This document shows positions 15,296 through 58,722 of a DNA stretch of 64,000 nt, one piece after another; positions within the stretch are counted from its first letter, which is position 1, and each line of letters starts with the position of its first letter. The stretch is from Astrocystis sublimbata (Eukaryota > Ascomycota > Sordariomycetes > Xylariales > Xylariaceae), in contig JAJNNY010000015.1 of assembly GCA_022453515.1 (NCBI GenBank), forward strand, positions 124,001 to 188,000, written 5' to 3'. A program made the translations under genes and the position numbers. Below the pieces are notes generated by a model that was not told the origin of the DNA, ran no database searches, and was given only the letters and a program-made list of their open reading frames with translations.

Positions 15296-15477
15296 CTACA
15301 TATTCACATGTCATATATATCGGGCTACGCGAGATGGAAATCTTTTGCCATTGCAATATGAAGTCATCTCTACTACTATTGTGTTTCACCGCTTGCTGCA
15401 GCCCATAGTATGAAATGTCCCCCTTCAATGTCTTGGGCTCATTGCTTCTAATAGCAACAGCATGCCGACAACAGATA

Positions 15478-20866: not shown

Positions 20867-21080
20867 ATCATAAATCCTTCAATCACTTGTCACACAATGT
20901 TCAATGCTACGTGATCATGAGTGCCATCACAAAGAGAGATGCGGAGAACCAGGGAACTTGTGCACATTATCCCCGCACGCATAGGCCTTTGTACCTACCC
21001 TATTCGTGAAACAGACTCAAACGGTTTTATTCTCCATCGTCTGCAAATTTCAATCCATTACCAAAAGTCGTGCTGCGAAG

Positions 21081-23434
21081 ATGATTTCACAATATCGAGC
21101 CAGAAGACGACAAACCCCTAGACTTGGCCGATCTGGTCCGCGATCTAGAAATGGGTGCCAAACGTGCAAGACAAGACGTGTTCGTTGTGACGAACAGCAT
21201 CCGGTCTGTAGTCACTGCGACAGGTTGCAGTTGGATTGTACCTATGAGATCGTAACTCGTTCGAGTCGAGATGCACATGGCAGCAGGAATGCACCTCAGC
21301 ATAGCGAAGAACAAACACCAGGTCTCTCATTAGATATCGCTGCCCAATTTGTTGAGAGCAGCGGGATTGGTGGAGTGGAAGATTTGACGCTAGAAAATGC
21401 ATCTTCAACAGCGGTCCAAATGACAAATTCAGATCAAGACTTATACACAGATGGTGACAACTACGTTGGGAGCAGCGACCTTGGTGATATGTCAAGCTCA
21501 TCAACGATGCTCAACGCAGATTCCATCAGCGTACTCAATGCAGCAGAGACTGCCGGCTCACTATGGCAGAGCGGACAGTCAGCCCATCATATGGATTATA
21601 TCTCGGTTCCTGATCCCCCGTTTAGCTTCACATCGCTAGAATTCGGCAGTTCGCCAGGTCTCTTTACTGACTACAATGACGCCAATGCCCCAACGGCAGC
21701 AGAGGTTGGCCAACCCAATGCACAGTCATGGTTTGAACATGTATCCGACTCGCAGGAGTTCAGTCATACAGCCGAGGCATTAACTGCTTTTGAGAGAAGC
21801 GAAGCCAACAGCACCCCTCTGGGAGAAGGAAACGAGCGATTGCCTCCTGCCACGACCTCGCCTTTGACACCTCTCATGTCAACAACTCAGCAACAGACCT
21901 GTTTCAACTACTTCGATCGCGACGTGAGGCCGCCAGCTTCACTGGCTGGCATAGATCCACTTGGGTGGCTAAAAATCAAGCGTTACATCCTAGGCAAAGC
22001 TCAAAATGCCCACAAGCTCATGCTGGATGCTTTCTTCGCCATTAGCACCCTGCTGTCGGCGACCGACATGACTTTCCAGTCTAGCGTAAATCGACACAAC
22101 TACAGGCTCCTTGCCATTCGCCTTCACAAGGCAGCCTGCGCCTTGATCGAGCAAACACTGGCTCGGAATGATTGGGAAGCTCAACATAGCTAAGACTTAC
22201 TGGCTGCAGTGTTCCTGCTCACCTGGTTCGAGGTAAGGTCAAGTTGATAGGAACTTTAGGCTCGTTTTGGTGTCTTACAGATTGATAGATCGCATAAGAC
22301 GACGGGGACCAGCTTCGTCCATCGTTTCCAGCTGAGATGGCAGCCAAAGTCATCGTGCAGGGTCAGGGTTGGAATGAAGGCTCGATACATCTCTTACAGT
22401 GGCTTAACCTCATGGATTCCAAGATATCCGTCTTGGGAGGTCGGGTCTTGTTCCTTGAGTCCGCTTTGCAAGTGATAAGACGCGCTCATTTTGAGACCTC
22501 GCATCCAGAAATAATCGATGAGGACCGCAACTATCACTCACATGTTGAATAATTCGAAAGCGAGGAATCGGAAACATCACAGAAGCCGATCGCCAAACCA
22601 TGTCGCACCAAAAGGCTCGAATACCTGCTATCAAATCGCTCGCAGTCGGTGCCTCCATTGACTGTCGTCAGGATGGACATTTTCAACATCATATCATACC
22701 CCGCATTCGAATTTCACATAACGTCGATGTCTTTTGCCCGGCGCATCGGCGGACACGACCGTCACCATCGCTCACGCGAGACACCCGAGGACGAATTTGA
22801 GGTAATGGAAGCGTGTCGGGGCTTCGAAGAGGAACTACAGGAACTGTGGCAGCACCGACCCGGCATCCTGAACCTCGATGCATCCCAGCTCGAACACTTC
22901 GTCAGCAAGGACATTGCTCGAGAGCTCGAGCTTCTATTCAGTCTGTACATTGCTACGTTCTGGTCGCATTTCATTTACATTCACCGCGTGGCGTTCTGGT
23001 CCCTCAAGCATACTGCGATTGTGGAAAAGGCACTTGTAGAAACAGGCAACATGATGCGAAGGAGCGTTGGGCAATCAATGGACTGTTTTGCGTTTGACGA
23101 CAGCATTACACGAACAGCATTGAACACCATCCACCCTGGCCTCATGTGGACATGTCTAGTCTTCGCATTGGAAATCCCAGATCCTGTTCAACAGAATTGG
23201 TGTGTCGCTCAGTTGAGGGCTCTTGGGAAACTAGGTTCCCCTGATTACACGGACCATTCCAAGAGTACGAATGGTGTTTTGCCATTCCGTATAGACAAAA
23301 AAGGCCAACAGAACGCACTCAAAGTGTCGAGACTCCTGCGGGAGGTAATTGACCAACAGGAGAAAACTAAAGGCAGGGTAGATGGTCGATATATAAGCCA
23401 AGAGCTGTTTGGTTGTACATTCTACATGATATAA
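21081..23434 (+). pseudogene. Zn2Cys6 transcription factor, broken
   Basis: The N-terminus (MISQYRARRR) carries a textbook zinc cluster, CQTCKTRRVRCDEQ then CSHCDRLQLDC (C-x2-C-x6-C-x5-C-x2-C-x6-C). A Ser/Asp-rich linker and the start of a fungal-specific transactivation domain (GWLKIKRYILGKAQ and HKLMLDAFFAISTLLS) follow. The frame is stopped by TAA at 22191-22193, directly before the conserved DLLAAVFLLTWFE. After an intron-like stretch the reading frame resumes at FPAEMAAKVIVQGQGW (a frame change near 22310 unless an atypical splice is used). It is stopped again by TAA at 22550-22552, then is open to 23434 with SLYIATFWSHFIYIHRVAFW. Both stops fit CAA-to-TAA changes. The first 370 codons could still give a DNA-binding fragment without most of its regulatory domain. 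It was probably the cluster's own activator. Confidence 0.8.
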
Positions 23435-23949
23435 TATGAAAAAATAGCTCTGCCTTATTTCCCTTCCCTGTACTACCGACATCAAGCGTCACTGGGTGCC
23501 TTTTTACTGTTATAAGAGATGGCACATGTACGCCGGAGAAAGTATGAATTGAATGGACAAGGTTCTCGCCTGAATCTGGAAAACTTAACCTTTTTCGAAA
23601 ATATTTCTTTGTCTCCTCAACAGTGTTGGCTTTAGAGAGCGTACTTATATCGTCGCTCACACTTCCCCGCATCGCGACAGTCTATTGTACCCCGCGAATT
23701 ACCAGGGGCCCATGTGGTAAGGTAACTCGCGATCGTCTCTCGGGTCTCGCGTGGGCTCAAAGATCGGAACATAGCGATCTATAACACACTGCATCTCCAT
23801 GTTTCTGCATTAGATGCCCACTATATCATGCTATCTACATGGCTGCAAGTTCGTCATCTCAAAAAGCATGGTTCCCCATGCACACCCGCCTTGTCAGGAT
23901 TGGTCTCAATTATCGTCGCAAATTCAAAGTGGGTTTCTTGGCCGTCAAG
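23435..23949. other. Intergenic, upstream of MFS transporter
   Basis: Contains the putative 3' end of the regulator pseudogene and the transporter promoter. An in-frame upstream ATG at 23839 could extend the transporter by 37 residues. Confidence 0.45.
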
Positions 23950-26029
23950 ATGTCGACAGAGTCATTCCAACAACAACAACATCATGAGAAGAGGGACGTT
24001 AAGCTTCTGGAGCACGTTGACGAGACTCAATATGTCCATATCGATCCCGTTGCCGAAAGAAGGTATTTGTTTCCAACTCAATGAAATAACCGCTTTGCTG
24101 CAAATCGAACACTGACGACAACACAGACTCGTTCGCAAACTGGATATTCGCTTGATGCCTTTCACGGCTTTGATCTACTTACTATGTTATATAGATCGGT
24201 CCAATATAGGTATGAAATCCTCTTAAGTTTACACGATGATTTGTTTAGTATTCTACACAATGTCAACCGTCAGTTTATTCGAGTAAAGATATTGCCGAGG
24301 GCTTATAGATCGGCAACCCGCCTTGGCACACTTAGCACCTATTTGTACTATAACTACAAAGAAAACAGCGTATCCAGTGGATATTTAGTGAGCATCTAGT
24401 GGACATCAGCACCCTAACTAACAATTGATCACTGATTGTAGGCAATGCTAAAATCTTGAACTCGACAACCCATGATACCCTGCTTGATTCAACAGGACTT
24501 ACAACTTACGAGTACACCATCGCGCTGCAGCTTTTTCTTGTGACTTATACACTCTTCGATGCACCCAGCAATCTCGCATTAAAAATCTTCAAGCCGAATA
24601 CGCAAGTAATCCTCCTCTACTTTAATCCAAATCAGAATTACTGATCACATATGCTGTCGATCTCATCCCACCAGCAGTCTCTGACTCAAAACGCTCATAG
24701 ATGGCTCGGATTCCTCATCATCGGTTTCGGCGCCATATCAGCAGCCATCGGCGGCACTAAGAATTATGCCACGGTCGCCGTGCTGCGAACTCTTCTGGGG
24801 GCCTTTGAGGCTGGTGTCTTTTCAGGCATGATATTTTTCATGAGCTTCTGGTATAAGCCCTCGGAGCGCGCGACTCGTATTGCTATCTTTCTCTGCAGTG
24901 CCACCCTGGCCGGCGCTTTTGGCGGGTAAGCAAGTCACTTCAATGCCGTGTTACCTACTGAAGATACGCATCTGACTCATGATGTTGCTGTCAAGCGCTA
25001 TCGCATTTGGTGTTGGGCATATCAATCGCGCTCATGGGCTAGAGGGTTGGAGATGGCTATTTATAATTGAGGGAGTGCCGTCCGGTGAGTAGTGCAGCCC
25101 GTGATGTACGAACGCGCAGTATACCGATGATCCTCATGTCTATAGTTGCACTGGGATTTTTCATGATATTCTTTCTGCCGAACTATCCAGAAAATGCAAA
25201 GTGGTTGAGTGAAGAAGAGAAGGAATTAGAGGTCCGACGATTGGGCGCAAATAGTTCTCACGGGTAGGTCAAGTTTTGAAATTTTCAAATACCTAGTCAC
25301 CAAAGCTTACTTAAATGATGAGCCATTGCTGACGGCTGAACCCGTAGAGGGGCGAAATTGAACTGGCCCGATGCCAAGGCCACTCTTCTCGATGGCAGGC
25401 TTTGGTTCCATTACTTTGCGTATCTCTGTTTAGGAGTCGGAGTCAGCTCTCTATCACTCTTTACTCCTACTATCGTGGCCGGTCTCGGTTACCACGATCT
25501 TCAAGCCCAACTATTTACAGTGCCACCGTACGCAGTTGCATATGTCATCACTCTGGGTTTAGGTATCTTGTCAGACCGGTACAAGGTCAGAGGTCTGATT
25601 GCCGGTACTTGCTTTGCTATCGGATCCGTTTCATTCATTGTCCAAGGTGAGTTCTCGCGTCTAACACCCTGCCATTTTAAATGTGTATCTCTAATTACTG
25701 CTTCGATTGCAGCTGCTCTCCCGGGAACAGCCTACAGTGCCCGGTACGGTCTCCTCGTGGTGTCGACAACAAGCGTATTCGGAGGTTTGCCATTGTTGTG
25801 CGCTTGGGTCTCGGACAACGTACTAAACACAACGTCAGGGTCGTTGGCGAGCGCATTGAATATAACATTCACGGGTCCCGGCCAGATCATCGGGGTTTGG
25901 ATATACCGCAGCCAAGATTCACCTGCATTCCGCCTGGGCCACGGCGTCAATGCTGGCTTCTTAGCGCTAGGGTCCCTTCTGAGCTTTGGGCTCTATTGGC
26001 ACTATATACCAGACTCAACAAGAAGCTGA
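23950..26029 (+). CDS. MFS transporter, anion:cation symporter (Dal5-like), altered C-terminus
   Basis: Eight exons (23950-24062, 24127-24209, 24442-24601, 24701-24925, 24996-25084, 25146-25263, 25348-25646, 25713-26029), 467 residues, all in phase. Landmarks: DPVAERRLVRKLDIRLMPF, LCYIDRSNIGNAK (TM1 end), GFGAISAAIGGTKNY, LGAFEAGVFSGMIFFMSFWY, GLEGWRWLFIIEG, FFLPNYPENAKWLSEEE and RLGHGVNAGFLALG. These define the ACS family of 12-TM permeases for organic acids and vitamins (allantoate, nicotinate, pantothenate). The fourth intron model needs a GC-AG splice (GCAAGT at 24602). The end is abnormal: after GLYWHY the expected LNKKL and RNERTAMDR segments are present but in other frames, so the protein stops early. 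It likely imports or exports the pathway's acid, if still functional. Confidence 0.8.
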
Positions 26030-26843
26030 TAGGAACGAGCGAACCGCGATGGATCGCATGACTGTAAGTAACTACGGGTAATAATAGTCGTTTTAATAAG
26101 ACATTTCAGAATCGATTCAAATGCTTACCTTTGTTTGGCTTGTGCCACTTCGCCCGTATCATACCTAGTACTAGGTAGTAGATGCAACGTGCCTTGGCAT
26201 CATGAATCTTGTCGATGAGCCTCGTTCTTCAACTCCTAAGTAAGGATCTTATTTTAGAATTCCGGCGACATAGTTCAATCAAAACAGCAAAAAAAATACT
26301 TCAAGAATATCGATCAACCTTGAGATCGAATACACTATTTCACCCGCAGCTGTGCTACATGAGCAACAAGATGCGCCCATTTTCGGCCCACGGCGAACAC
26401 TAAATCATCTCATCGCCATCCCGCTTCTCTGTCAGCCACGACATTCTCCCAACTTCTTTGACTGGGTGATTGAATTTACCCACACCCTCAGTACTGAACC
26501 TCGCATAAATAGCAGGTCGCAAATCTCCTTCACTACAGTGCATCGGATACGAAGTAGCGGCCTTCATAAGTATCAGGTGTCTTTAGATCAAAGTGTAGAA
26601 ATGTCGCAGTAGTCATGTAATTAAATAGAATGGTAGGGGCCAGGTGACAATGCTGTTGATTCCTGGGCTCCCCCAAGACCTTGGGATTCTTGAAGCAAAG
26701 CCAGGTCTCCTAACATTCCAGATGAAAGTGGTGTTCGCAACAGAAGCAAGAATGAAAAAGAGATAGATACACATTGTAGAATTATAAACTTATATTCGGT
26801 GCACTCTCAATAGATGTGGTGGAGTTTAAGGGACGCAAGTTTT
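26030..26843. other. Intergenic; transporter 3' remnant and repeat
   Basis: The first 100 bp hold out-of-frame remains of the transporter C-terminus, including a GTAAGT donor at about 26063 and an acceptor near 26110. The rest has no supported gene, apart from the repeat fragment at 26626-26670. Confidence 0.45.
26626..26670 (-). repeat. Second copy of the LTR-like repeat end
   Basis: The 45 bp match 40 of 45 positions of 6416-6460 in reverse orientation (shared GAGCCCAGGAATCAA, then CACCTG and CCCCTAC). It lies about 170 bp from the tRNA-His gene, a common landing zone for LTR retroelements. Only one end of the repeat is recognisable. Confidence 0.55.
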
Positions 26844-26915
26844 TGCTAACGGCATGAATCGAACATGCGTTTGCTCGGCCACAACGAGCTGTACTAACCA
26901 CAATACGACGCCAGC
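26844..26915 (-). tRNA. tRNA-His (anticodon GTG)
   Basis: 72 nt on the minus strand fold as a standard cloverleaf. Acceptor GCTGGCG pairs with CGTTAGC (two G-U pairs) with discriminator A. The D-arm contains the A-box-like GTATTGTGGTTAGTAC. The anticodon stem is GCTCG/CGAGC around the loop TTGTGGC with anticodon GTG at 26880-26882. A 4-nt variable loop precedes the T-arm GCATG-TTCGATT-CATGC. There is no intron. A T-rich run (AAAAACTTGC) downstream on the minus strand can serve the Pol III terminator only weakly. Identity rests on the anticodon and on similarity to eukaryotic tRNA-His. Confidence 0.9.
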
Positions 26916-27147
26916 TGATGACGTAATACGATGTTAGTTTCAACTATATCATCTATAACCAAGTCAGGGGATAGTGACTCGGAGGAAAATTTCTATGCGT
27001 CCGAACGATCCCTTCAATCAGGCAGGATACCATGTGTGTTATATTCAATATCACGAAACGCAGGGTTGAGACTACGATTGGATTATTGTAATTAGGATGG
27101 TATCATGGCCACTATCCAAGCGAAGGACAGTCAACATGAGCAAGTTT

Positions 27148-28281
27148 TCACATACTCTTTCTGCTCCCACTCGCTGTTTCTGCTTCTTTAATAAACCATT
27201 TGCCGGCTTTGGCAAGGCCGCTTTCCATCGATACCCTAGGTACATACCCCAAAACTCGCCTTGCTTTCGCATTGCTCAATGTGCGGCTGATGGTAGTGAG
27301 GTGAATGGCTTCGCGGGTGACTATCGGATGCTTCTTGTCTAATGTGAAGATCCAATAAAGCCATTCGGTAATAGCAGCTATCACCATTGCGATCCAGATC
27401 GGCACAATCCTGATGTCTTCCTTCTTGACGTGGAGTCCGACAGAGGCGGCTATGGAGCGCTGGAAATCCCAGAACTCAACCGGTTCTTCGTTGGTGATGT
27501 TGAAGACCTCGCCATCGACTCTCATATCAGGAGTCGGTGCGGGCCGCCCGTAAGCCTGGACGAGAGCTTGAGCGGCGAGAATATGAGCATCCACAAGGTT
27601 GGATATGTATACAAAATCGTATATATTTTTGCCAGGGCCAATCTGAATCTTCTCTTTCCCCGCTCGCACATTCGCAACGATCTTTCCCATGGTCACGGTA
27701 TCGCGCTCGCCGAACGCGGTCGCCGGGCGCAGTGACACAGTCAACAAAGATGAATCCCCAGACTCTCGGTTTGCAGCGAGAATGTCTGCTTCGGCTTCCG
27801 CTTTTGTCAATGTGTAGACTCGCTTTTGGGCTGGGTATTGAAGTACGGGGAATGTCTCGTCCGCGTCGAACAGATCAGACAGGTTGTCGTGAATTACAGA
27901 AGACGTGGAGGTATTGACAAAGGCCTGCACCGTCCTGCTCTGCTGCCGGCAAGCGTTCAGCAAATTCTGGGCGCCATCGACGTTCACTCTTCGAAACACC
28001 GCAGGCTGCTGCACCATCGAGTCGGGACATGCTACATGAAATATAGTCTTTGGCTTCGCAGCAGCAAACACGGCATTGACGTCTAAAACCGAAGATATAT
28101 CGCAGGTGTGATATGTAACGCCCGCAACGCGATTCTGGCTAGTGTTGATGTCGATGACATGTACTTGACAGTCTGGTTCAATCTCAAGGAGTTGGTCGAC
28201 AATGTGAGACCCTATGAAGCCACAGCCGCCTGTGACAATGACTGGGCCCAAGGTGGGAAGTGAGTTTGTATTCGATGGCAT
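27148..28281 (-). CDS. 3-beta-HSD / ERG26-like NAD-dependent dehydrogenase
   Basis: Single exon, 377 residues. It is an extended short-chain dehydrogenase of the 3-beta-hydroxysteroid dehydrogenase/isomerase family. The NAD loop is VTGGCGFIGSHIVDQL (residues 15-30), with VIDIN ending the second strand. The catalytic YxxxK is YTLTK (in RVYTLTKAEAE, about residue 164), preceded by VNTSTSSV. LRPATAFGERD and NIYDFVYISNLVDAHILAA follow, all ERG26/NSDHL-like. A hydrophobic segment (PIWIAMVIAAITEWLYWIF, about residues 295-313) may attach it to the ER membrane. Relatives oxidise 3-beta-hydroxy groups of sterol 4-carboxylates or act on other alcohols in secondary pathways. It sits at the edge of the peroxisomal cluster but its C-terminus (RKSM) is not a PTS1, so membership in the pathway is only possible. 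Confidence 0.85.
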   Translation of the reverse strand: MPSNTNSLPTLGPVIVTGGCGFIGSHIVDQLLEIEPDCQVHVIDINTSQNRVAGVTYHTCDISSVLDVNAVFAAAKPKTIFHVACPDSMVQQPAVFRRVNVDGAQNLLNACRQQSRTVQAFVNTSTSSVIHDNLSDLFDADETFPVLQYPAQKRVYTLTKAEAEADILAANRESGDSSLLTVSLRPATAFGERDTVTMGKIVANVRAGKEKIQIGPGKNIYDFVYISNLVDAHILAAQALVQAYGRPAPTPDMRVDGEVFNITNEEPVEFWDFQRSIAASVGLHVKKEDIRIVPIWIAMVIAAITEWLYWIFTLDKKHPIVTREAIHLTTISRTLSNAKARRVLGYVPRVSMESGLAKAGKWFIKEAETASGSRKSM

Positions 28282-29707
28282 GATAGGTAGAATCGATGAT
28301 TATTGTTGTGAATCGGTAAGAAATGTGATGTCGAGTTGGCACTTATATAAACAATAGGCGGTGTGGGTGCTTCCAAGGGGCACAGAACTTCGGAATGGGT
28401 GGAGTACGAGATGGTTACGACGGGACCATGTCCGATTGAATCTGGAAAATAACAGTACGTATCTACCTAGGTAGGTATGTAAAAGTGCGAGGCAGGTCGG
28501 CCAGGATGGCGCTCTGCAGCTAACAGCAACTATGTTTGGGACCTGTATGTTTTTGACTTTCTTCATCCTTCAAAGTGGTGTGCTAGAATTATGTTCCCTT
28601 TTAGTGACCCCGTGGAGCTCATGATAGCCGTATATCATGTGTACTAACAATACGTCTAGTTAAGAGACAAGATATAGATAGCTAAGCGCATATCAATGGA
28701 CCGGAAATATCATTCTTACTTGATGCTGATTCGAAGACTATCATGTCAAGAAAGCTGGTGCTGTTGATGTAGTGCGGCACAGTATGACAATGAAGCATAA
28801 TGCTTTATTAGTGCAAGGGGCACGTTAGTAGATTGTCTGTTGTAACCATCTTTGCAATCACGTAGAGTATAGTGTTTATCTCTCTCTTTCGCGGAAATAC
28901 CTCCCTAGCTTGCTCTCGACGAGGAATCTCTAGAGCTTTGGTTCACGAAACGTTCATGCGCGCCCCTAACTTCAGGTTCATAAGAACAATCCCGAATAAC
29001 CTTAGGGCTCACATAATTAAATATACTTATTTATTCATTGTTGGTTTTTAATGCAAAATGGCCAGGAGTCCGGAACACAATACTTCCTCACCTAGCTCAT
29101 CGCCATCTCGTCCCAGCCTCTTTTCATGAGTTGCAATCACCGCCACCGCTCGACTCAAGGTCATACTGGCTTTTGGATATAGAATACCTTCCTCCTCCTC
29201 TTCAACTTCCGATGTCATGGCGGCTGTGTCTATTGCATGTGGCGAGCTTTCCCGTCGTTTCGGCCCCGATCTGATCGTGCTACGATCTGCAGCTATTTAC
29301 AGCAGCCTTAGTGAAGAGAGCTGGTCCGATACTAAGTGCGCGACATAATTTTGTTAAAGGGAGAAGAGGCCGATTGTCGATATTGTTTTTGCAATTGTCC
29401 TTGCCCAATCGCAACTGGTTTACAACGTGATGAGTAACGTGAGGATTGCAGGGCAGCAGTTCAGTCATCATATTCAATCAGTGTGCAAAGCCATACCCCT
29501 ATGGCGTGAGGGGCTGAACCAGAGCATTGCCTCTCAAGGCTAACTACAAAAATCGACTTAAAAGAGAGTAAATCATTTAGAACACGGCATATGTGATCTT
29601 GCTATTCAATTCGAATAGAGCTCAGTAACTTGATTGAGGCTACTAAAACTTGGGATGAGGTGCAACTTTAACTGCACAGCCCCCAAAGACATTTGTCCGC
29701 TTCACAC
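28282..29707. other. Intergenic, no gene recognised
   Basis: About 1.4 kb between the dehydrogenase promoter and the 3' end of the adenosine-deaminase gene. Only short frames without motifs are present. Confidence 0.45.
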
Positions 29708-45441: not shown

Positions 45442-48400
45442 ATGGCCGATTTCGATCGCAATGTCCTCGAATTCTACGGCATCTCGAACATGATGCCCAC
45501 CGCCTGGCCCGCCGAGAAGAACGACAAGACCGACGACGACGATAGCGAGAACGAACAGCAGCAGCAACAAAAGAAGAAGATCCAGCGCCGGAAATCCCGC
45601 TATGAAGCCCTCGAACGCGCCGTCAGCAACCGCGCTAGCATTGTCGCCGGCTCCGAGAAGTCGGCGAGCGGCGTCAGCAACATCGTCCAGCGAGACGAGC
45701 CCGACCCCCTCGGCGCCGGAGACAGCGTCGTGAGGACCCTCAAGGAGCTGGGCGTCCCCATCCAGGACGACCCGAGATTGCGTAAGTCTGCTGCTTATGA
45801 ATGCAATATGCAAGCCCAAATGCCAATCTATCTATCTACACAGGCAATCGCTTCCTGATGTCCTCCACCAGCTTCTCGCCCGCCCTGTTCCTCTCCCAGA
45901 TGCACGCCAGAGCCGACACCCAGTCCCTGTTGAGCGGCCTCGACGTCCTGTCCAGGTCCATCGACCAGAAATCCGCCTCCCTCAAGGTCCTCGTCGAGTC
46001 CAACTTCGAGCGCTTCGTCCGTGCCAAAGCCACCATCGACAATGTCTACAGGGAGATGAAATACCGAGGCGAGGAGCCCCCTGCGGCCCAGGATCGCTCC
46101 CGTTCCCGCGCCCACTCCACCGCCGCCAGCCGGAACAGCTTCAGGGCTTCGAGCGTGGGTGGGCCGCCATCCCTCGGCGTCAACTCTCTGTTGTCATCGA
46201 GTTCTCCGGTTTCCCCGGGAGGTAATAAGAAAAAGAACGCCTTGGTCAAGGAGAGCGACTACGGCGTGTCTGGTATCAAGGCACCCCTGCTGGATGTCTC
46301 GGCCAAGGCAGAAGACGTCTGGGGCCCTGCCCTCGGCGGTCGCGACAAGGAGGAAAATCTGAGGACTGTCTCTAATTCACTGGAGCGCTACAGGGGGTAC
46401 ATGGAAACCAGCTCCAGCATTGCCGACAGCATACGCCGGAAGGACTACGACGCACTGATAGAAGAATACGGCCGCGCGAGGCGTTTCTCCGAAGAGACGA
46501 AAAAGCTCGTGCAAGACCTGGGATCTACACCGCCCAGCGAGACGCAGACCTATCAGATCTTGATCGCCGCCCGCATGTGGTACGATGTCGAGGATCAAGT
46601 CCAGCTCTTTAAGCGCGAGGTCTGGAGGAAACTGACATTGCTTCACAACATGTCCAAGGGGGACACGAGGGGGCCATCGCAGGATCAGCACATGGAGCTC
46701 ATCGGGCTGCTGCTCGAGTTGGGTGTCGAGGACAACCCGATATGGGTATGGCTTCTGAGCCGATACGACTATCTCAAGGGCAAGATCTCTCTGGTCGGCG
46801 ATCGCGCCAAGGTCGAGATTGAAGTACTGAGGCGCCGGCTTGCCAACGCCGACAAGCCCTCGTCGCAAATCCTCACCTCACATCTGCGCAGTCTCGGACG
46901 GCATTCAATGGAAAGCAAGCCAAACGGCCTCGACACGCCTGACGTCATCGAGCTGTGGGAGAAGATGGTCTCATTCCTAACCAGCCTCCTGTCCTCCCAG
47001 GGTGTGCTGGGCGACGTGCTGGAGTTCTGGCAGACCGTCGAGAGTTTCATCGACGGCAAGGCGCAGAAATCCTTACCGACGGGTTATAACGGCGAGTCGC
47101 GCGAGCACCACCGCCTCTCGATGCAGGGCACGGTCGACCTCCGGAAAGCCACCATCGAGCTTGTCGATATGATCCGTGCTCATGTGTTCGAATTTTTTGC
47201 TGACGCTCCCCCTGAGGACATCTCCTTGCTCTTTTCCCCTTTGCCTCCCTCGCCCAAAACGCCAGTGTCAGCAGCGCTTTCGCCTACGAATGCGAGAGAT
47301 CCCCGTTTCTTCTTAGATGCTAACAATCCACCCCCTCCGTCCCCTAAGCGGGGCGAGTCCTGGGAGAAGTATGCATTCTGGCCTCCAGGCTCCAACTCCA
47401 TCAGCGGGGTCCACTACCTTGCCAAGATGCTCGGACTCATTGGTACCGGAGCCGCGGAGATGGGCAGCGTAACGCCCGTCAACCAAGACGACTCAAAACA
47501 AATGGATTTATTGCGATCACTGGTCAGCGCGGCGCGAGAAAGGAGCGTATATGCCCTCTGCGCCGCCTGGAACAGAGACGCTGAAAACATCAAGCTGGTG
47601 GAAGACTGGCAACGGTCCAAGGATGTAGGCGACGTCACATGCATGCCTGCCACCTTTGCCGCGTTCGAGGGCGCGCTACTCAGCGGTATCCAGAAGATAC
47701 TCTATGTTTCAGAGGCCGTCTCGAAAAGCGGTCCCGGGGATATCGTTCCGCCGCCCTCGACGAAACTGTTGCAGATGGTGCGCAGCCAATATGTCACGAC
47801 GCTGTATAAGGCGCTGAGCGGAATGGTGGAGAATGCTGAGAGGGCGGTTAAGAAGGCTGAAGACGAGTGGACGACGGATGCAGATCATAATTCTGTGGGC
47901 GCCTATGGCGAGCGAGCATCTACCGTTCCTGGGAAGGGGACTCTTGACGCCGGTGACCGGGTAAGTTGATTCCTATCTATTGATCACTACAACACATCAG
48001 AAACGAGAGTAAGAGAGCCACGATGTGCTAACCAGCGTCTTCGCAAAGAACGTCCGCATGCTCCTAACCCTCAGCAACCTGCAAGCTCTGCGCTCGCAAG
48101 TCGTCCCGAACCTCAACGCGCAGTTCGAAAACGCCTTCTCGGTGAAACTGACCGACGAGTCCAAGACGATCAAAGACGTCCTCGGCCAGATCGACGCGCG
48201 GCTCTTCCAGACATACACTCGACCCGCCGTGGATACGCTCCGCAAGACGATTCGCGCGGGTGTCAACGATCCCACTTGGGCCCCTTCGTCCACTGATGCC
48301 GGCACCAACACCAAACCCAAAGAAGCAAAACCCTACGTCTACGAATCCCTGCTCGTCTTGGTGCTGGTGCACACCCAAGTCTCGACCACCGCGCCCTCCC

Positions 48401-48759
48401 TGACGCACCAGGTCCTTTCCTTCCTCCTAGAGCACATCACCAAGATGTTACTCGAAGTTCTTTCATCCAGGGAGACGTACGATCTCAACTCTTTAATGCA
48501 AGCGACGCTCGATGTGGAATTCGTCGCGCAGACGCTGTCTCAGTATACTACGGAGAAAACATCGGAACTGCAGACGGACGTTTATGCGGTGCTGGACAGC
48601 AAGACGGATGGCGCCTCGAGGAGTCAGTTGCAGGATGAGCTGCCGGGTATGAGGGAGCTGTTGAAGAGGCTGAGGGAGATGAGCAGGAATGAGTTTGCGT
48701 GCTTTAAGAAGGTTAGGAGAGGTGGAGGTGGGGGAATCGAGAGGACGGCGACGGGTTAG
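45442..48759 (+). CDS. SEC5: Exocyst complex subunit Sec5
   Basis: Three exons (45442-45781, 45844-47960, 48049-48759), 1055 residues ending at TAG 48757-48759. The pattern matches fungal Sec5. A charged N-terminus has a Gln run. The coiled-coil core motif follows: RFLMSSTSFSPALFLSQMH, LLSGLDVLSRSIDQKSASLK and LVESNFERFVRAKATIDNVY (residues about 115-190), then a long all-helical rod (GVEDNPIWVWLLSRYDYLKG, LLTLSNLQALRSQVVPNLN and TLDVEFVAQTLSQYTTEK). A Ser/Pro-rich insert (SPLPPSPKTPVSAALSP and PPPPSPKRGES) lies near residue 590-630 and may be a phosphorylation loop. Sec5 is part of the octameric exocyst that tethers secretory vesicles at growing hyphal tips. The reading frame continues beyond the stop (next entry). 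The third-exon acceptor was set at 48048 because it keeps the NVRMLLTLSNL frame. Confidence 0.92.
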
Positions 48760-49900: not shown

Positions 49901-50173
49901 CTATTTTTCTCCTGCAGTGTCTTCGTATTCATGGACTGTGTATCCATGCTGACGAGGGATGATCTTGGCTTCGTCTTCGTAGTCGTGGACTGTGTATCCA
50001 TGCTGACGAGCCACGATGTTGCCTAAACCGCAAATCAGTTTTTTACTTGACAATGAAGAATTTACTCATGACAGTTTTTCACTGGTTATGTGCATAAGCA
50101 TACCTTGCTTTGGGGCTGGAGCCGCGAGAGCGAGTAGAGAACTGGATAGGAGGAGTATGATGGAGGACTTCAT
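49901..50173 (-). CDS. Candidate RiPP precursor, signal peptide plus two core repeats
   Basis: Two exons on the minus strand (50104-50173 and 49901-50022) with an 81-bp GT-AG intron give 63 residues. Too short to stand out as an ordinary ORF. A signal peptide (MKSSIILLLSSSLLALAAPA) is followed by a short leader with NIVAR, then two nearly identical units, QHGYTVHDYED and QHGYTVHEYED, joined by EAKIIPR. The DNA of the 36-bp repeats differs at only two positions. Unit starts follow Ala-Arg and Pro-Arg, and Pro-Arg is a known Kex2 site. The EA after the first core recalls Ste13 trimming sites. This layout (secreted, Kex2-processed, repeated Tyr-rich cores) is that of fungal dikaritin-type RiPPs made by UstA-like precursors. 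Two UstYa-family genes and a P450 follow within 7 kb. A small secreted repeat protein without modification is the alternative. Confidence 0.7.
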
Positions 50174-51449
50174 GGTTGCTTGCTGTCACTGTAGACACTG
50201 AAATGTGATAATATGAGGTACGGTTTGAAACAAGTTGTATAGTCAAGTGAAGTGAAGACCGTCCCTTGATAGTTTGAGTGTCGAGCATAATTGTTCCTGA
50301 CTTTTGGTTCCCAACGAGATATTTATACACAGATACCACACCCACCATAGGCGCCATGGCAGGTGCATGACTTCACCAGCTTCCAAACTTAGCTTACCTA
50401 AATTCACGGCTCACCACTCGTTATGAGTACCGTGGTGCTGATGCATTGACCAAGAAACATTAACTACGACAGACTCGCGGGATTGGGATATCATGCGATG
50501 CCATAGTCTGCGCCTTGATTTGCTTTGTACTTACCTACTACGTGACACTGATCATTTTCCTCGAGGTCGTAGTTTCACTATGGATTGATTGGTTCCTGAC
50601 ATCCAATGGCTGGCCAGAACAAACCTCTTCGCCTGCTGCACGACATGCCACCCGGGTGGAAATGCATGTCGGCGGTTTTCGTCGCGCACTGTGAATGGAT
50701 ACCTCACGGCTCGAACCTCATGTCATGTTGCTTGCGACATGTCGACTCCTCGATGTTGCCACGCGCAATTGAATAACACGACATACATATGCACATCTCT
50801 TTTGCCTTTGCTGCAAACGGTCTGTTGAGGGGTAGGTAGGATCAATACAGGGCGGGACAAATGAGCCTAACATGGGCAACTCCATGTCTGACGGGAGACA
50901 GATATCATGCGAGTTGACTGAGAGCATAGCACGGCATAGGTAGTAAGTCGTTGCATTGGTCGAGCTCACATCGCGGAATTTCTATGGGGGCCGAATCCAT
51001 GATTGCAGCTCATTTTTATAAGCAATCATGCGGGGTACCTAGGTAATACAGCATATCGCATCCGAAATATCAGATGATTATCATAAAATGAAAAAGACGT
51101 TTGTGCCACCCTGATTGTGTGGGTGTATGTAGAGTCTGTTGAAAGCAGCCACAACCGCAACATATGCCCCTTTTGAGACGAACGGGAACTGCTCAAGCTT
51201 CTTGTACCGATGATTCTAGGGAACTTTGCCACCAATTAGAGCGAATTCAGGACTGTACGAGAGATACAGTGATCATTTCTATTAGACAGTGTTGCGTGGG
51301 GTGATTCAAAGCTTGTCTTGATCCCACAATGGAGACCTGAATATTATCGATACAGAGTCAAATTGGCCGCATCCCATGCACTTAATATAGTATAGTAACT
51401 CGTTGTATATATACTTATCTTAAACCAAAAGGCAACAATGGCTGATACC
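50174..51449. other. Intergenic within the RiPP-like cluster
   Basis: About 1.3 kb that includes the precursor promoter. No additional precursor repeat, oxidase motif or other gene was found on either strand. Confidence 0.5.
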
Positions 51450-52499
51450 TCAAAAACCCTTTCCCAACTTCTTCCCATCTGCAGCCAAATGCCAAACAGG
51501 ATGATTGTCCGCGTCATGCTCAACAGCCCAGTCCCGAATCTTCTCGAAGTTTCGACACGTGTGTTCCGTGACGGTGAAGTGGAAATTCGGCCTGCGGTAC
51601 TTGCTGTTCCACACGAGGGGAAAAGGAGTGAGGTCCGATGTGCACATGAGCGCTTCGCGTAGTGAGTCTACGCAGTGTTCGATGTGGGCCGTGTAGCTAT
51701 CCATGTTCCTTTCGTTGGCTCCGTAGTAGTCCATATGCAGCGTCTTGCGGAGCATGTTCTGAGCCACGATTAGTTACTGCTTTGCTATATGATAACTCTA
51801 AGCTTCCGACTCGAGTTGTTAAGTTATAATAGGGCATGCTCACAAGACAATGCAGATGGTGGAAAACCTCGATGCCCAGAACCCACCACCCATCAGGCTT
51901 TTGTAGCGTCGTTCCTTCAACTGTCTTTGCGTCATCGCCTCTGATGTCTACAGCATCACCTAGAGAGCCATGTGAGCTAGTGCTTTGATGACGAAGGCAG
52001 TGATAACACACTGATGCATACCGAAAATAAGTCGATCCCAATTCGCGTCAATTTCAGGGGTCGGCTCTCCCACGTATTTAAGAGCCCCAGGTTTTGATAC
52101 GCGTACAAGTGTCCCGTTTTCATCCCAGTCCAGATCACCGGTAAAGGTACGTCGCTGAATTTCAATCTGTGACTTGAGTGGTTCTGTCCGAATGTTCAGT
52201 GAGCCAACGTCCTGACACCGCAACATTGTAACAGTTAATACTCACCTAGCTCGGTATCAAGCCCAAGGGATATGTCATATCGAGGGTGCGACGCGACCGA
52301 TGCGAGTAGCCAGGTCAAGGAGAGTGACAACAGCCAGAGTGCAGCACCTGCCTCTTGATATAGGTTGAGCTGCGGATGCTCTGAGGTGCTCGCTCAGGAG
52401 TAGACCTGCCTCTTGCTCCGAGAGGCTGTGGCTATCACGTCCTGATGCCAAGGAATCATTCGACTCCTTTTCGACGTTCGAATACGTGGTGTACGCCAT
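51450..52499 (-). CDS. UstYa-like (DUF3328) oxidase, copy 1
   Basis: Five exons on the minus strand (52406-52499, 52246-52347, 52022-52183, 51844-51959, 51450-51758), 260 residues, all in phase. The polar N-terminus (MAYTTYSNVEKESND) precedes one membrane helix (GAALWLLSLSLTWLLASVAS), giving a type II membrane protein. The core has IEIQRRTFTGDLDW, KYVGEPTPEIDANWDRL, then the two family signatures: HHLHCL (HxxHC, in GIEVFHHLHCLNMLRKTLH) and HIEHCVDSLREALMC (second HxxHC). Family members carry out oxidative macrocyclisation or related crosslinking of ribosomal peptides, using the paired HxxHC motifs, in the secretory pathway. The first intron (58 bp) was placed to bring the membrane helix into frame. 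It is close to a peptide with two Tyr per repeat, the expected substrate. A separate role in another pathway cannot be excluded. Confidence 0.88.
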
Positions 52500-53092
52500 T
52501 GTGAGCTGGAATGGGAAGGATATAGTCTGCGCAAGATATTCCAGAATCAAAAGGACAGTGAGTCGTATATCCTTTCAGTCAAAGCAAAATACCACTGTTT
52601 TACTAGGTTTCGGGGGTTGAAGTGTTTACTGTGAGAAGGAAGAGCAATATCGAGGAACATGACGCCCATACCATCCGTCAATCCTTAGCGTTCCGGGTGA
52701 TATCCCCGGAACCCGATTGCGGTCCAGAAAGCCGCTGCATGAATTATCGCTGGTGCAGTTGCTCTACAGACGACCAAGCTGCAAATAGATAATGCATAAA
52801 CAATCAGCATCGCGTGATCGATTTTCCAAGTATGACATTTGATGCATTTGAATGACTGCACATGCTGTGTAACCTCTTTGAACTGTTCCTGCCACTAGAT
52901 ATACAGAACGCACACTGTATACTACTCCATGTTCAGACCACATGATAGAGAGAGGCTCGATGTTGCTATGATTTTTCAGGGTCTCGACGTGTCCCCGTGG
53001 GTTTTGACCGAGCATCGCCCCCGGGCTTCACAATTGTGCTTCGAAATTTTAAGTCTTTATATATGCAAGATACGCAGTGAACCCTTTCAACC
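52500..53092. promoter_or_regulatory. Divergent promoter between the two UstYa-like genes
   Basis: 593 bp between oppositely oriented start codons (52499 and 53093), so the promoters of both genes lie here and could be shared. No specific binding site was identified. Confidence 0.5.
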
Positions 53093-54249
53093 ATGTCTCT
53101 CGAATATGACCCTTCACAACGAGCAGCTTTCCTGAAACAAGAGGTTGACGCAGAACTCGGCTCGTCATCCCGCTCTCAGCAAGTCCTGAACCAGAACCTT
53201 CTGGCCTTGACAAGAAAACTGCCTTCGCTATGGGTCATATCTACGATAACATTTGCCTGTGCCACTGCTTTACCCCTTCTCCGGGAAGTGACTGGTGCTG
53301 GTATACTACCATGTATGATTGATGACCCTCGAGGGCTGGACGTCGGATCTGGCATGAATCCCCCTACTCACTCGAGAATACCTAGTTTAGAAGAAATATG
53401 AAGCTAACAGACGCATCCTCATGAGAAGCCGGAAGCCGTCGCGTAGAAGTTCAATTCACCGGCGCCCTCACTTGGAACTCGAGTGGTGTCCTAGTGAACG
53501 AGCACAAACCTGGCGAGCGGATATGGGTTGGCGAGCCCAGCCCGGAGATAGATGCGGCATGGGATAGCCTCAAAGAAGGTAAGTCTTGCAGCACCATTGA
53601 CTCACAGCGGCTTCACTTCCTACTAAGGTGGAAACCCAATATCTCTCCGAGAATAAATAATGATTGACGATCTCACAGTCTGGGTTGTGATGCTCGAAGG
53701 CGAAGAAGCCAGCAAGGTCCGTGATAAGACAACACTTCAAGATGGATACTGGCTTTCCGGACTGGACGTATTTCATCAGTTACACTGCCTCGTACGTTAA
53801 ATGCTCAGTCCCATCAATTCCAAGTCGTGATATCGACATGATACACTGTAATTACCTCACTCATGGTAACTCACAAAATACCCAAAACTCACATACTCAC
53901 GTCCCCTTAGGACTCGCTCCGAAGAGCAATCTACCCAGAACACTACCCCCCTCAAGCCTTGCCACGTACCTGGAGATTGCACATGGATCACTGCATCGAC
54001 TACCTGCGACAGGTGCTCATGTGCCACGGCGACACGACGCCCGTGAATCAGAAATGGTTCGACGCAGCGCGCCGATACGGTCCTGATTTCGAGACACTGC
54101 ACACATGCAGGCCGTTCGATGAGCTTGTCGCCTGGTCGCGTGCTAGGAGTCCTGAGGCGAGGAGCGGCACTGAGGGGAGGGAGGTGGCTAAGGACGCGAA
54201 TATGGTCGTACGAGAAGGTTTGCTTGTTGCACATGAGCGTCGTCATTGA
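53093..54249 (+). CDS. UstYa-like (DUF3328) oxidase, copy 2
   Basis: Four exons (53093-53300, 53426-53578, 53679-53791, 53911-54249), 270 residues, although the first intron's exact ends are uncertain (donor at 53301 or 53313). A soluble N-terminal segment of about 45 residues precedes a membrane helix (SLWVISTITFACATALPLL). The core shows VEVQFTGALTWNSSGVLV, WVGEPSPEIDAAWDSL, then HQLHCL (first HxxHC, after SGLDVFHQLHC) and HMDHCIDYLRQVLMCHGDTTP (second HxxHC). It is clearly the same family as copy 1 but the proteins diverge strongly outside the motifs, so they are not a recent duplication. Paired UstYa-family enzymes (UstYa and UstYb) act together in dikaritin pathways. It reads toward the P450 gene. 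The C-terminal tail after LVAWSRAR is basic and unconserved. Confidence 0.88.
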
Positions 54250-54678
54250 GCAAACAAAGGGGTCTCGCGGGCTCACGGTCTACGTTCTCTCTCGGGACAA
54301 TTCAATTGGGATTATTTGTAATGCTTCAGGCTTCCTCGAATAACCTTTGTTCTTGTTAGTCATCTTTTCGTTTGCTTGGAAATTACATAGGTAGGTAGCC
54401 ATCAATCTGGGTAGGTAGGAATAAGTAATACGAGTAGATGATTCTGCAACATGAAAACCAACATTTAATAGACAGCAAACAGTGACGCCAACAGTAACAC
54501 CAACAGTGACACCAAAGAAATTACCTTTGTCCCACGCAATCGTGGCATCTTCGCTACAAGGAAAAAACTCTTCATCATGCTTCGTGGCTTCTCCATGTTG
54601 CAGCTTCCTCCAGGTTGAGACAACATCAGCAAAGTCCACACCATCCAAGTCGTCGCGAAAACCGCAAATACCATCGCA
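54250..54678. other. Upstream region of the cluster P450
   Basis: About 430 bp including the P450 promoter. It contains a 12-bp tandem array (next entry), no gene. Confidence 0.5.
54478..54513. repeat. 12-bp tandem repeat, three copies
   Basis: AACAGTGACGCC, AACAGTAACACC and AACAGTGACACC follow one another exactly, each differing from its neighbours at one or two positions. The array is about 165-200 bp upstream of the P450 start codon, so it may be regulatory or simple slippage. Confidence 0.7.
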
Positions 54679-56764
54679 ATGACAGGGACGCCATCATGGC
54701 TTGCGGCCCACGCGCACCTGATCTTTCCCCTCGCCATCACCTACTACGCATGCCTAGTGACCTACCGCTTGTTCTTCCACCCGCTTGCGCGATTCCCAGG
54801 TCCGAAACTAGCTGCTATCTCGCGATGGTATGAAGCGTACTATGACGTGATTCAGAACGGGCAGTACACGTTCAAGATCGCGGAGATGCACAAGGAATAT
54901 GGTAAGACTGAGTTCTTCAACAGTACTTTCAGCATAAAATCAATCGACATACTCTTACTTTGATCCCTTGCACTTAAACTTCGATGCTAAAGTGAATAAA
55001 CACCATAATACCGATTGACACTAACACCACCAAACCCAGGCCCCATAATCCGCATCAGCCCCCACGAGCTACACATCAACGACCCTTCCTTCTTCGACAC
55101 TTTATACCGCCAAGACGGCATCTGGGACAAGCACGCATGGTCCATCGACGCCTTCACAGCTTCGGGCTCAACCATCTTCGCAGCCTCCCACGCCGTGCAC
55201 AAGGCGCGACGGCAGCCTCTCAGCCCATTCTTCTCCAAAGCGCGGGTCGCAAGCCGGCAGGAGTTACTGCAGCGGCACGTATTGAAACTCCTCCTACAAA
55301 TCGAGAAGTTTTCCAATTCCAGTTTCCGCTCTCGCGAAGAGACGAAGAAGCAGGTATGGGATATCAGAAAGGAGATGCTGAAACCATACCAGCCGCGCAA
55401 AGCCATCAACCTCGGCGCCGCCTTCCACGCCTTCACGCACGACGTCGCGAATGAATACATCCTGGGAAAAGACTACAACAGCCTCGGCAGCGGCGCGCAG
55501 ACCTTCGACGCGGCGGCCCCGCACCACAAAGACAATAACCCTGGCCATATCTGGCGCATCACGAAGCATGTGCGCTTCTTCGGGCCTGCACTGAGGGCGA
55601 TTCCGCCGGCCTTGGTCATGCGCTTCGGCGATGAGGCGACGAGGGCGTTTTATAAGTTTATTGGGGTGACGCTGAGGGATACGCAGGAGCTTATGGCTGC
55701 TTTCGAGGATGGTACTACTGCTACTACTGCTGCTACTGGAGAGGATGAGGGAGAAGGGGAGAAGGGAATCAAGGAAGGAGACAAAAAACCCCCAAACATA
55801 GTCTCAGCAATCCTATCCTCCAAGCTCCCCGCGCCCGAAAAGCGTCTCGTCCGCGTCTTCGAAGACGTCTCGACCGTCGTGGGCGCCGGCACAAGCACGA
55901 CGGCCGGCGCGCTGAACCTGATCATATTCAACGTCTTCAGCGACCGGAATCCCGAGATACTTCTGCGGCTGCGCGCCGAGCTTTCCACGATAGACACCAA
56001 TGGCGACATCACGTCTGCAAATGCAAATGCTACAGAAACGACAGAATTCCCCTTCCCACCCCTCAAAACCCTCGAGCAACTCCCGTTCTTAACAGCAGTA
56101 CTAACCGAGGGCCTGCGTCTGAGCCCCGCGACCGCGACGCGCATGGGGCGCGTCGCGCCTGATCGGGATTTAATCTACGAGGGGAAGGAGAAGTGGAGGA
56201 TCCCTGCGGGAACGCCGGTGGGTATGACGACGGTACTGATGCATATGGATCCGGCGCTGTTTCCGGACCCGTGTACGTTTGATCCTGATCGCTGGATGGA
56301 TCATCGGTATGAGTATTATGATGATGAGGAAGAGAGTGAGAGGATGAGGGAGAAGGAGAAGGATAGGCGCAGGGAGATGGAGAGGTTCTTCGCGCCGTTT
56401 TCGCGGGGGACGAGGAATTGCGTTGGGATGCAGTGAGTTATTTTCTGTTTCCTTTTCCTTTTTCTTTTTTCCTTTCTGTTTTGTTGTTTATTCCACTGAG
56501 AGTCGAGTCGAGTCGCGTGGACAGATGAGACAGCGGTGGAAACCCCCCATTGATAATGCCTACCTGACTGAACTGACTGACTGACAATTCCCTCTCCCCA
56601 GCCTAGCATGGGCCGAGCTCTACCTCGTCGTCGCCGTCCTAGTGCTGCGCTACGAGTTCGAGGTGCAAGGCAAGGCGGAGGACTTCCTCCCTAGCAGTGA
56701 CAATTTCGCCATTGGTACGGATAGCGAAGGTTTCTTGAAGGCGTTCGTTAGTACCATCGCCTAG
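54679..56764 (+). CDS. Cytochrome P450 of the RiPP-like cluster
   Basis: Three exons (54679-54901, 55040-56432, 56602-56764), 592 residues. The N-terminal helix (LIFPLAITYYACLVTYRLFF) is followed by the hinge HPLARFPGPK. ISPHELHINDPSFFDTLY, AGTSTTAGAL (I-helix), ExxR as EGLRLSP (about residue 440), and FAPFSRGTRNCVGMHLA (heme loop, Cys ligand) identify the family. The middle carries an unusual low-complexity Glu/Gly/Lys insert (TTATTAATGEDEGEGEKG) around residue 300, and a highly charged stretch (EEESERMREKEKDRRREME) precedes the heme loop. The two introns near the ends are typical of this P450 group. Next to a peptide precursor and two UstYa-family genes it probably hydroxylates or crosslinks the peptide, as P450s do in several dikaritin pathways (inference). 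It is separated from the KES1 gene by 490 bp. Confidence 0.9.
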
Positions 56765-57252: not shown

Positions 57253-58722
57253 CTACTGCCCCAACAACTCCTTCGCCAGTTTCGCCTTATCCTCCTCCGA
57301 CAACGTCTTCCCCTTAACCACATCCGCCTTCCCCTGATCAAACCTCCACAGCCCCCCGGTCCGATCCGCATCCCCCTTGGCGTCAACCCCAATATACCCC
57401 GCGAGCGTCTTCAGCGCCTCATCACCAGGCTGGGCCGTGAAGTACGTCCGTTCCCACTGCACGCCACTGGCCGCCTCAGTCTTGCGCATGGCGCGCTGCG
57501 CATTTTCAATCTTGCTCTTCTCCCTTCCGACAAGATCCATATCGCCCTTGGCAATGCCTTCTGCAACCGCCTTCCACGCACGGCGCGACTCGAGCGGATG
57601 CTGCTGTTCCAACGGTAGAACAATCAGTTTGCTCGCGGGGCATTTTTCCGGGTCCCAGGTGTCGATGAGAGTCTTGGCGGAAATATGTTTGGGGGCGCCC
57701 GTGTGGATCTCAAAAGCCTTGGTCCATTGTCCGGCGCAGCTGTAGAGGACGTCCTTCTCCTTCCCCGTAGGATACAGGGTGGAGGTGAACGAGTTCTTCT
57801 TGCCGCTCACCCACCCCTTGCCTTCGTAGCTGGTCTTGGCCGTGAAGCCTGTCGAGGAGGTGATCCAGGAGGCGCCGTCGAGCTCGACGAAGGGCGCGCC
57901 GAAGATCAGGCCTTCGATGTGCAGCGAGGGCAGCGTGATGAGGTACGTGTCGTGCTCGCCGGGCTTGTTCGGCACGGGGACTGTGAGCAGCGCGTGCCCG
58001 ATCTGTTTGATGTTGATGGTCTTGGAGAAGCTCGCTTTCTGCGCGTTGTAGCCCTGCAGGTGGACGCCCGAGGTTTCGTTTTTGATGCTGTAGGCCGTGG
58101 CCGGTGGGTGGTGGCTGTGGGAATGAGCGTGTGTTAGTGTCAACGCAGCTGATAATATCAGGCGGAAGCGATTCCGTGGTGATTTGATTACATCGAGAAA
58201 CTTACTTGACTTGCTCACTGATCATATCGGTTGTGCCGGCAGCATCCTCCCATTTGCCGAGGAAATGCTCGCCGAGGAAGGGGTTGAGGGGCTTCTTCTC
58301 ATTTCCGTATTGCTCGCTTCGACTCGCGTACTGCTGCTTGAGGGTGGTCAAGAACCACTTGAGGACCAGCAGAAGTCTTTTGGCGGGGTCTTCCTCCTTG
58401 GCGGGAGCGGCGAAGATACTGGGGTGTTCGCACCAGTACGAACTAAACTCGGTGAGACTCGTGGAGGAGAGGATGAAGGGCGGCGCGGTGAGGGACGACA
58501 GGTCGCCGTTGAAGGAGGCAACGGACTACATGGCAAGATTACATCAGTCATGCGAGACTAGAGATCATTCAGGGTAGTAAGAAACAAGACGAGGGGGAAA
58601 CAGGACCAGACAGGACAGCGCAGCTACACCATGATGAACAAAGTAATGTGGCACCGCCTTACCTTGAGGAACGAAGACCAACTCGACCCGGTCGCCTGGG
58701 GGTTCGGTGTCGGGTCCGACAT
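57253..58722 (-). CDS. KES1: Oxysterol-binding protein, KES1/OSH4 type
   Basis: Three exons (58663-58722, 58206-58525, 57253-58114), 413 residues starting [15 protein letters not shown]. It is the short ORD-only form, without PH or ankyrin domains, like yeast Kes1. Landmarks: [21 protein letters not shown], then [18 protein letters not shown] and [10 protein letters not shown] (the lid and lipid-entry region). The family signature follows, here [12 protein letters not shown] where EQVSHHPP is usual. WERTYFTA and GLWRFDQGK are near the end. It exchanges ergosterol and phosphatidylinositol-4-phosphate between the ER and Golgi/late secretory membranes. The signature's Asn arises across the last splice junction; a Ser would need an altered splice site, which I do not see. 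Housekeeping gene, flanking the RiPP-like cluster on the right. Confidence 0.93.

Follow-up and report, generated by a model that had tools for sequence, protein, structure and literature searches.

Among the closest described systems, ustiloxin and phomopsin are fungal ribosomally synthesized and post-translationally modified peptides (RiPPs) of the dikaritin type, whose cores are cross-linked from Tyr 1 to Ile 3 and whose synthesis needs a tyrosinase (PMC7329392). A 2016 gene list, as reported in PMC12048977, placed a tyrosinase, methyltransferase, transporter or peptidase in the dikaritin cluster; the type was later defined through its DUF3328 (UstYa) proteins, and working clusters without some of the genes on the 2016 list are described (PMC12048977). 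DUF3328 proteins are described as a binuclear copper enzyme family, CctR being one example; they have a membrane helix, a domain proposed to be lumenal and an HxxHC(x)nHxxHC site (PMC12435403). In a 2020 survey, Kex2-processed repeat proteins (KEPs) were defined among annotated proteins by at least three repeats of at least 8 amino acids between KR, KK, RK or RR sites (Umemura 2020; PMC7329392); 1758 of the 7878 KEPs lie near DUF3328 genes, and Tyr repeats are commoner in these (65.6% versus 38.2%; PMC7329392). Here we describe a stretch of 64,000 nucleotides from the fungus Astrocystis sublimbata (Xylariaceae; G000:C57:124001-188000, on the 749,974-base contig C57 of a 42.6-Mb assembly of 189 contigs; hereafter the window), in which a small secreted repeat protein, two UstYa-family proteins and a cytochrome P450 are encoded together. 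Our best reading, with a probability of about 0.7, is that this locus is a compact RiPP cluster of the dikaritin type; it probably adds a new member to a known peptide family.

The repeat precursor and its enzyme neighbors

Four gene models lie in the 7.8 kb between an exocyst Sec5 gene and an oxysterol-binding-protein gene: a candidate precursor, UstYa-1, UstYa-2 and a P450 (Table 1). An initial annotation, made from the letters of the sequence, had reported the same four genes between the same flanks, with a signal-bearing, intron-containing precursor holding two copies of QHGYTVH(D/E)YED and with both HxxHC motifs in each UstYa protein. Our models reproduce all of this, with exact coordinates; the name KES1 for the oxysterol-binding-protein gene is that annotation's own.

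The precursor gene is modelled with an 81-nt intron (GTATGC...TTTAG), and the part of its product behind the hydrophobic signal sequence reads GNIVAR-QHGYTVHDYED-EAKIIPR-QHGYTVHEYED-TAGEK. It has the N-terminal signal (by a crude hydropathy scan) and the repeated cores of a secreted dikaritin precursor. Each core copy holds two His and two Tyr, of which the first stands fourth, behind Gln-His-Gly, and the second follows five residues later; Tyr-Thr-Val has Tyr-x-branched spacing. In the DNA, the repeat is 52 nt long with a period of 54 and 87% identity. The 36 bases for Arg and the 11 core residues show two differences between the copies, one silent and one exchanging Asp for Glu, and the remaining 18 bases of the repeat unit show eight. 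The precursor is unique in its own genome, where a genome search returned two rows corresponding to its two exons, and a strict repeat scan of the window (open segments of at most 130 codons) returned the precursor repeat and its own alternative frame as the sole rows. A scan of the gaps in the cluster for hydrophobic starts found the precursor and three other segments, of 23, 27 and 41 codons.

Other frames across the duplication are open as well, for 37 to 41 codons, and no annotated protein matches the product, as would be expected if the precursor were a chance open frame on a noncoding tandem duplication. That explanation is very improbable: start codon, signal sequence, intron and stop agree in a single consistent frame, of the two base differences within the core one is silent and the other swaps Asp and Glu, and four genes of similar layout occur elsewhere in this genome (see below).

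Both enzymes next to the precursor belong to the UstYa family (PF11807; E = 4e-45 for UstYa-1 and 3e-42 for UstYa-2), and each has the two HxxHC motifs expected of a dikaritin DUF3328 protein. Their genes are divergent, with 593 bases between them, and the proteins are 33% identical to each other, which makes them distinct partners. The UstYa-2 model is identical to public model P0031; in that of UstYa-1, the first splice junction accounts for a two-residue difference from public model P0001. The P450 matches PF00067 (E = 3e-34) and contains the heme motif FSRGTRNCVG, read by eye. In DUF3328 binuclear copper enzymes, the HxxHC motifs of a helical domain are expected to meet as a four-His site. 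A structure model of UstYa-1 built from 15 sequences was poor (mean predicted local distance difference test score [pLDDT] = 49.9, predicted template modeling score [pTM] = 0.33); in this poor model a helix spans residues 28 to 52, and the HxxHC motifs sit on helices 151-167 and 179-198. A search by sequence for solved structures of relatives returned 0.

The UstYa pair is conserved across other fungi. Among 30 proteins listed for UstYa-1, the 14 closest other relatives come from Xylariales, Hypocreales, Talaromyces and Colletotrichum (44-68% identity over 58-100%); among the 36 listed for UstYa-2, the ten closest are 63-78% identical over the searched piece. The two lists have six named assemblies in common. 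In five of the six (four of five besides A. sublimbata), the longest listed contig is equally long for both matches, namely, in A. sublimbata, Xylariaceae FL1651, Seiridium cardinale, Torrubiella hemipterigena and Xylariaceae FL0594, with AK1471 as the exception. Equally long contigs indicate one shared contig rather than adjacency, save where tags are consecutive, as for the T. hemipterigena pair (VHEMI01211 and VHEMI01212). Over the five assemblies, the distance matrices of UstYa-1 and UstYa-2 agree (r = 0.85, 1/120 permutations).

Table 1. Features of the candidate cluster and its borders, in window coordinates
Feature	Coordinates	Strand	Details
Flanking exocyst Sec5 gene, taken as cluster border	45801..48756	+	PF15469, E 1e-114
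Candidate RiPP precursor gene	49901..50173	-	63 aa; exons 50173-50104 and 50022-49901; intron 50103-50023
Precursor repeat pair	49919..50024	-	Copies 49919-49970 and 49973-50024, the final two bases being the intron end; Arg-QHGYTVH(D/E)YED twice
Signal-peptide exon of precursor	50104..50173	-	MKSSIILLLSSSLLALAAPAPKQ plus one base of the following codon; from sequence and crude hydropathy scan
UstYa-1 (DUF3328/PF11807)	51450..52499	-	260 aa in this analysis's model, 262 aa in public model P0001; HHLHC and HIEHC
Doubtful first intron of UstYa-1	52348..52405	-	58 nt; exon sequence in relatives at this place
Divergent promoter region common to UstYa-1 and UstYa-2	52500..53092	.	From gene models
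UstYa-2 (DUF3328/PF11807)	53093..54249	+	273 aa, four exons; HQLHC and HMDHC
Cytochrome P450, candidate cluster member	54679..56764	+	592 aa; exons 54679-54901, 55040-56432 and 56602-56764
Flanking oxysterol-binding-protein gene, taken as cluster border	57256..58525	-	PF01237 (Oxysterol_BP), E 6e-28

Repeat genes at other UstYa places

As a control, the genome itself was searched for precursor repeats beside DUF3328 genes. PF11807 gave 34 genome matches, hand-grouped into 20 places (a lower bound), 19 of them besides this cluster. At 9 of the 19, the scan for in-frame peptide repeats took in about 20 kb; at the remaining 10 it took in about 3 to 12 kb, including four extra stretches that fall at three of these ten places. 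Precursor-like repeat genes adjoin 4 of the 19 other places (C132, C19, C103 and C141), a proportion that is not a genome-wide rate, as the scanned sequence was mostly chosen near UstYa genes.

Three copies are present in the C132 precursor (DGTTEFDPDFFLK) and in that of C19, and two in that of C103; the C141 precursor has GD(T/L)YKR twice and a third GDTY at the end of its open segment. Upstream of each of the four, in another frame, lies an apparent short signal exon, as in the precursor of the present cluster; the putative layout of signal exon, intron and repeat exon is similar. Three of the four signal exons pass the crude hydropathy scan, and that of C132 was read by eye. Each of these sister precursors contains two KR sites. 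At C132 and C19 a lone Arg also stands ahead of the first copy (SR and QR, respectively), with KR at the later copies.

When a strict filter was applied to 362,150 bases (overlapping loci counted repeatedly, open segments of at most 130 codons), 12 rows remained. The window and two loci contributed six, all of them the precursor of this cluster or its alternative frame, and four were the repeats of C132, C19 (two frames) and C103. Of the last two, one runs antisense to an ankyrin-like open reading frame (ORF) in L040, and the other is in a different frame of an L043 ORF that has a 19-residue repeat. The filter drops C141, where the copies are less alike.

Three of the sister precursors appear related. 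Those of C132 (L035 7139-7321), C19 (L012 3369-3563) and C103 (L017 3066-3197) carry KR sites and related, Tyr-free repeats, DG(T/H/A)(T/S)EFD(P/A)D(F/L), and apparently form one expanded family of this genome; the string EFDPDF is absent from the literature main texts searched. At C141, a second and more classical dikaritin-like cluster occupies approximately 186.9 to 194.9 kb (L043 3370-4524, L024 2578-2859 and L026), with a tyrosinase at 189692-190433, UstYa matches at 192183 and 194690 and, between the latter, the signal-peptide precursor with GD(T/L)Y-KR repeats; the ORF with the 19-residue repeat lies near it.

The arrangement in the window also bears on another explanation, in which the precursor is an independent linear repeat peptide, secreted as a signal or as a small protein in its own right, and the UstYa and P450 set beside it acts on some other substrate, such as a nonribosomal peptide. 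DUF3328 proteins are not confined to RiPP pathways: CctR, for one, acts on cyclochlorotine (PMC12435403), and 78% of the KEPs in the 2020 survey have no nearby DUF3328 gene (PMC7329392); moreover, the UstYa pair is conserved, yet no relative of the precursor was found. However, with about 20 UstYa places (a lower bound) in 42.6 Mb, the precursor starts 1.3 kb from one of them, and repeat genes adjoin four others. None of the four gene models is a peptide synthetase, for which the 7.8 kb between the flanks would be too short, and every core copy offers two Tyr. We consider a linear peptide of this kind quite unlikely.

Three further gene arrangements were noted. On C135 (L039 1046-4765), a long ORF with ankyrin-like repeats and a P-loop close to the N-terminus, both read by eye, lies about 5 kb from a UstYa match, and on C131 (L047 4667-4909) a small secreted-looking ORF (MRFITLVVFIATAVMAAPNPMPNAEAMPNPAPEPNDIVEPKACCL) without KR repeats lies some 5 kb from one. 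Elsewhere in the window, positions 13635-28299 hold a further metabolic gene set comprising a P450, an AMP-binding enzyme, a thiolase-like fragment, a Zn2Cys6 regulator and a 3-beta-hydroxysteroid dehydrogenase-like dehydrogenase.

Weighing the dikaritin-type reading

The dikaritin-type assignment, as made in the initial annotation, is partly supported. Gene content, the sharing of contigs by the UstYa pair elsewhere and the similar architecture at four other UstYa places speak for it, and the cluster falls under the later definition, with DUF3328 proteins and a repeated secreted precursor. As far as tested, it does not fit the 2016 list, and this is one of several observations that weigh against the assignment: 0 of the 29 tyrosinase matches in the genome lie on this contig, and no methyltransferase, transporter or peptidase was found among the four gene models and two flanks. 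The four models likewise include no regulator. A promoter motif shared beyond chance was not detected: three 8-mers were in common, where 100 shuffles gave 0.38 on average and 3 at most, and no common word reached 9. The agreement between UstYa distance matrices is gone once AK1471 is included (r = −0.07, 394/720 permutations). The precursor contains no KR, KK, RK or RR, a single Arg standing ahead of each copy (AR-Q and PR-Q). Its relatives numbered none among 5.8 billion proteins in the length ranges of about 35-110 amino acids (63-residue query) and 105-334 amino acids (chimeric query), in a weak search that required three exact shared words in a class of small genes that often go unannotated. 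Because the precursor query misses even itself, whereas the UstYa queries return proteins of this species, the precursor gene is probably unannotated in public data. One scan of the back-translated core against viral contigs gave 0 matches.

The last of these observations concerns UstYa-1. Most of its aligned relatives carry extra residues just ahead of the membrane helix; in A. sublimbata the corresponding bases do not stay in frame, and each gene model removes them as a short intron (58 nt here, 52 nt inferred for the public model) with the unusual donor GTCTAC. UstYa-1 may carry damage close to the membrane segment; what is modelled as its first intron could be of recent origin, a lesion or an error in the sequencing. 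Damage there would belong to a decaying, cryptic dikaritin cluster, in which only two copies of the precursor repeat are left, the dibasic sites are lost, the UstYa-1 frame has apparently changed next to the membrane helix and nothing is made today. Pointing toward decay are the residues that relatives have where A. sublimbata needs an intron, the bridging of the gap in both models by that short intron, and the lack of KR in this precursor compared with two in each of the four sister precursors. On the other hand, no HxxHC motif is disrupted and both UstYa frames are otherwise intact, the 36 bases for Arg and core differ between copies at 2 positions as opposed to 8 in the other 18, and introns of approximately 50 to 60 nt are usual in fungi. 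We regard decay as unlikely, though not negligible, and retain a compact dikaritin-type cluster as the preferred reading.

The core itself had been described in the initial annotation as unlike the cores it compared (YAIG, YVIPID and FYYTGY). As a string this stands: HGYTVH is absent from the literature main texts searched and the precursor has no detected relative, so that a new product is plausible. As a pattern it does not, because in Tyr-Thr-Val the distance from Tyr to the branched residue is that of YAIG and YVIP; we rejected on this ground the idea of a core that resembles nothing known.

Proposed product and comparison with known systems

Under the dikaritin-type reading, the signal peptide would take the precursor into the secretory pathway, where the Golgi protease Kex2, or another arginine-specific protease, would cut behind the single Arg ahead of each copy. 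Kex2 cuts after Pro-Arg in the yeast killer toxin, a point not confirmed in the one paper found on it. The peptides so released would start Gln-His-Gly-Tyr-Thr-Val-His-(Asp/Glu)-Tyr-Glu-Asp; their N-terminal Gln would probably cyclize to pyroglutamate, and basic C-terminal residues would be trimmed. Oxidative cross-linking of a Tyr side chain would fall to the pair of UstYa enzymes, both of which have a putative HxxHC(x)nHxxHC copper site. The likeliest link would run from the Tyr oxygen to the Val beta-carbon, like that of Tyr-x-Ile in ustiloxin and phomopsin, and is proposed because Tyr-Thr-Val keeps the spacing of those linked cores. Cross-linking may also involve the second Tyr or the His residues, and the P450 may oxidize the product further.

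A more specific version, which we advance tentatively and would not presume, is a dikaritin variant released at single Arg residues, with a His-flanked Tyr-Thr-Val ring formed by the UstYa pair and P450 and no tyrosinase; such a product could possibly be bicyclic through its second Tyr and possibly bind metal through His. Precursors of that variant would escape surveys that require dibasic sites and three repeats.

If the cluster functions in the proposed way, a precise precursor, two enzymes and the expected masses can be named for a new ring-shaped fungal peptide. The computed [M+H]+ is 1363.555 for unmodified QHGYTVHDYED (1346.528 in pyroglutamyl form) and 1377.571 for QHGYTVHEYED (1360.544 in pyroglutamyl form), and every cross-link would lower these values by 2.016. 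It would also follow that dikaritin-like precursors need not have dibasic sites and may go unannotated, and that current counts are too low. The Tyr-x-branched spacing within a new sequence makes the UstYa substrate rule testable.

The UstYa proteins can be compared beyond RiPP pathways with CctR, CctO and CctP2 of cyclochlorotine, which likewise are DUF3328 proteins with HxxHC(x)nHxxHC but act on a nonribosomal peptide (PMC12435403); some UstYa-1 relatives are labelled cyclochlorotine biosynthesis protein O by source databases, as a label only. Within the same fungal order, ustiloxin-like RiPP clusters are described from Hypoxylaceae (Hypomontagnella species, H. rubiginosum and H. pulicicidum). 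These were found through precursor similarity to known dikaritins (PMC8403587), and we liken them to the present cluster by description only.

KEPs near DUF3328 genes resemble the precursor in being secreted repeat proteins with DUF3328 neighbors and Tyr in the repeat. We rejected the precursor as an ordinary KEP, as it has no dibasic site; with two repeats and no such site, it would go unlisted by the survey rule. With 1758 repeat proteins already counted near DUF3328 genes in that survey (PMC7329392), the addition of one cluster is not surprising by itself.

Asperipin-2a (AprA/AprY/AprR/AprT) comes from a very small cluster too, with no tyrosinase listed in PMC6514808, several Tyr in the core and ether links from Tyr side chains. 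Its cluster, however, has one DUF3328 protein, a reductase and a transporter, in contrast to two DUF3328 proteins and a P450 here, and its core, FYYTGY, is unlike QHGYTVH(D/E)YED. Ustiloxin B (UstA/UstYa/UstYb/UstQ) and phomopsin (PhomA and five DUF3328 proteins) share with this locus a signal-peptide precursor, repeated Tyr-x-branched cores and at least two DUF3328 enzymes, and the ustiloxin pathway includes a P450, a candidate member here (PMC12048977, PMC7329392). UstA differs in yielding 16 peptides at KR sites, in having Tyr first in the core and in requiring tyrosinase (PMC6514808), whereas the present precursor has two copies, a lone Arg ahead of each and Tyr in fourth place. Processing at a lone Arg would be a possible variation on the known dikaritin type.

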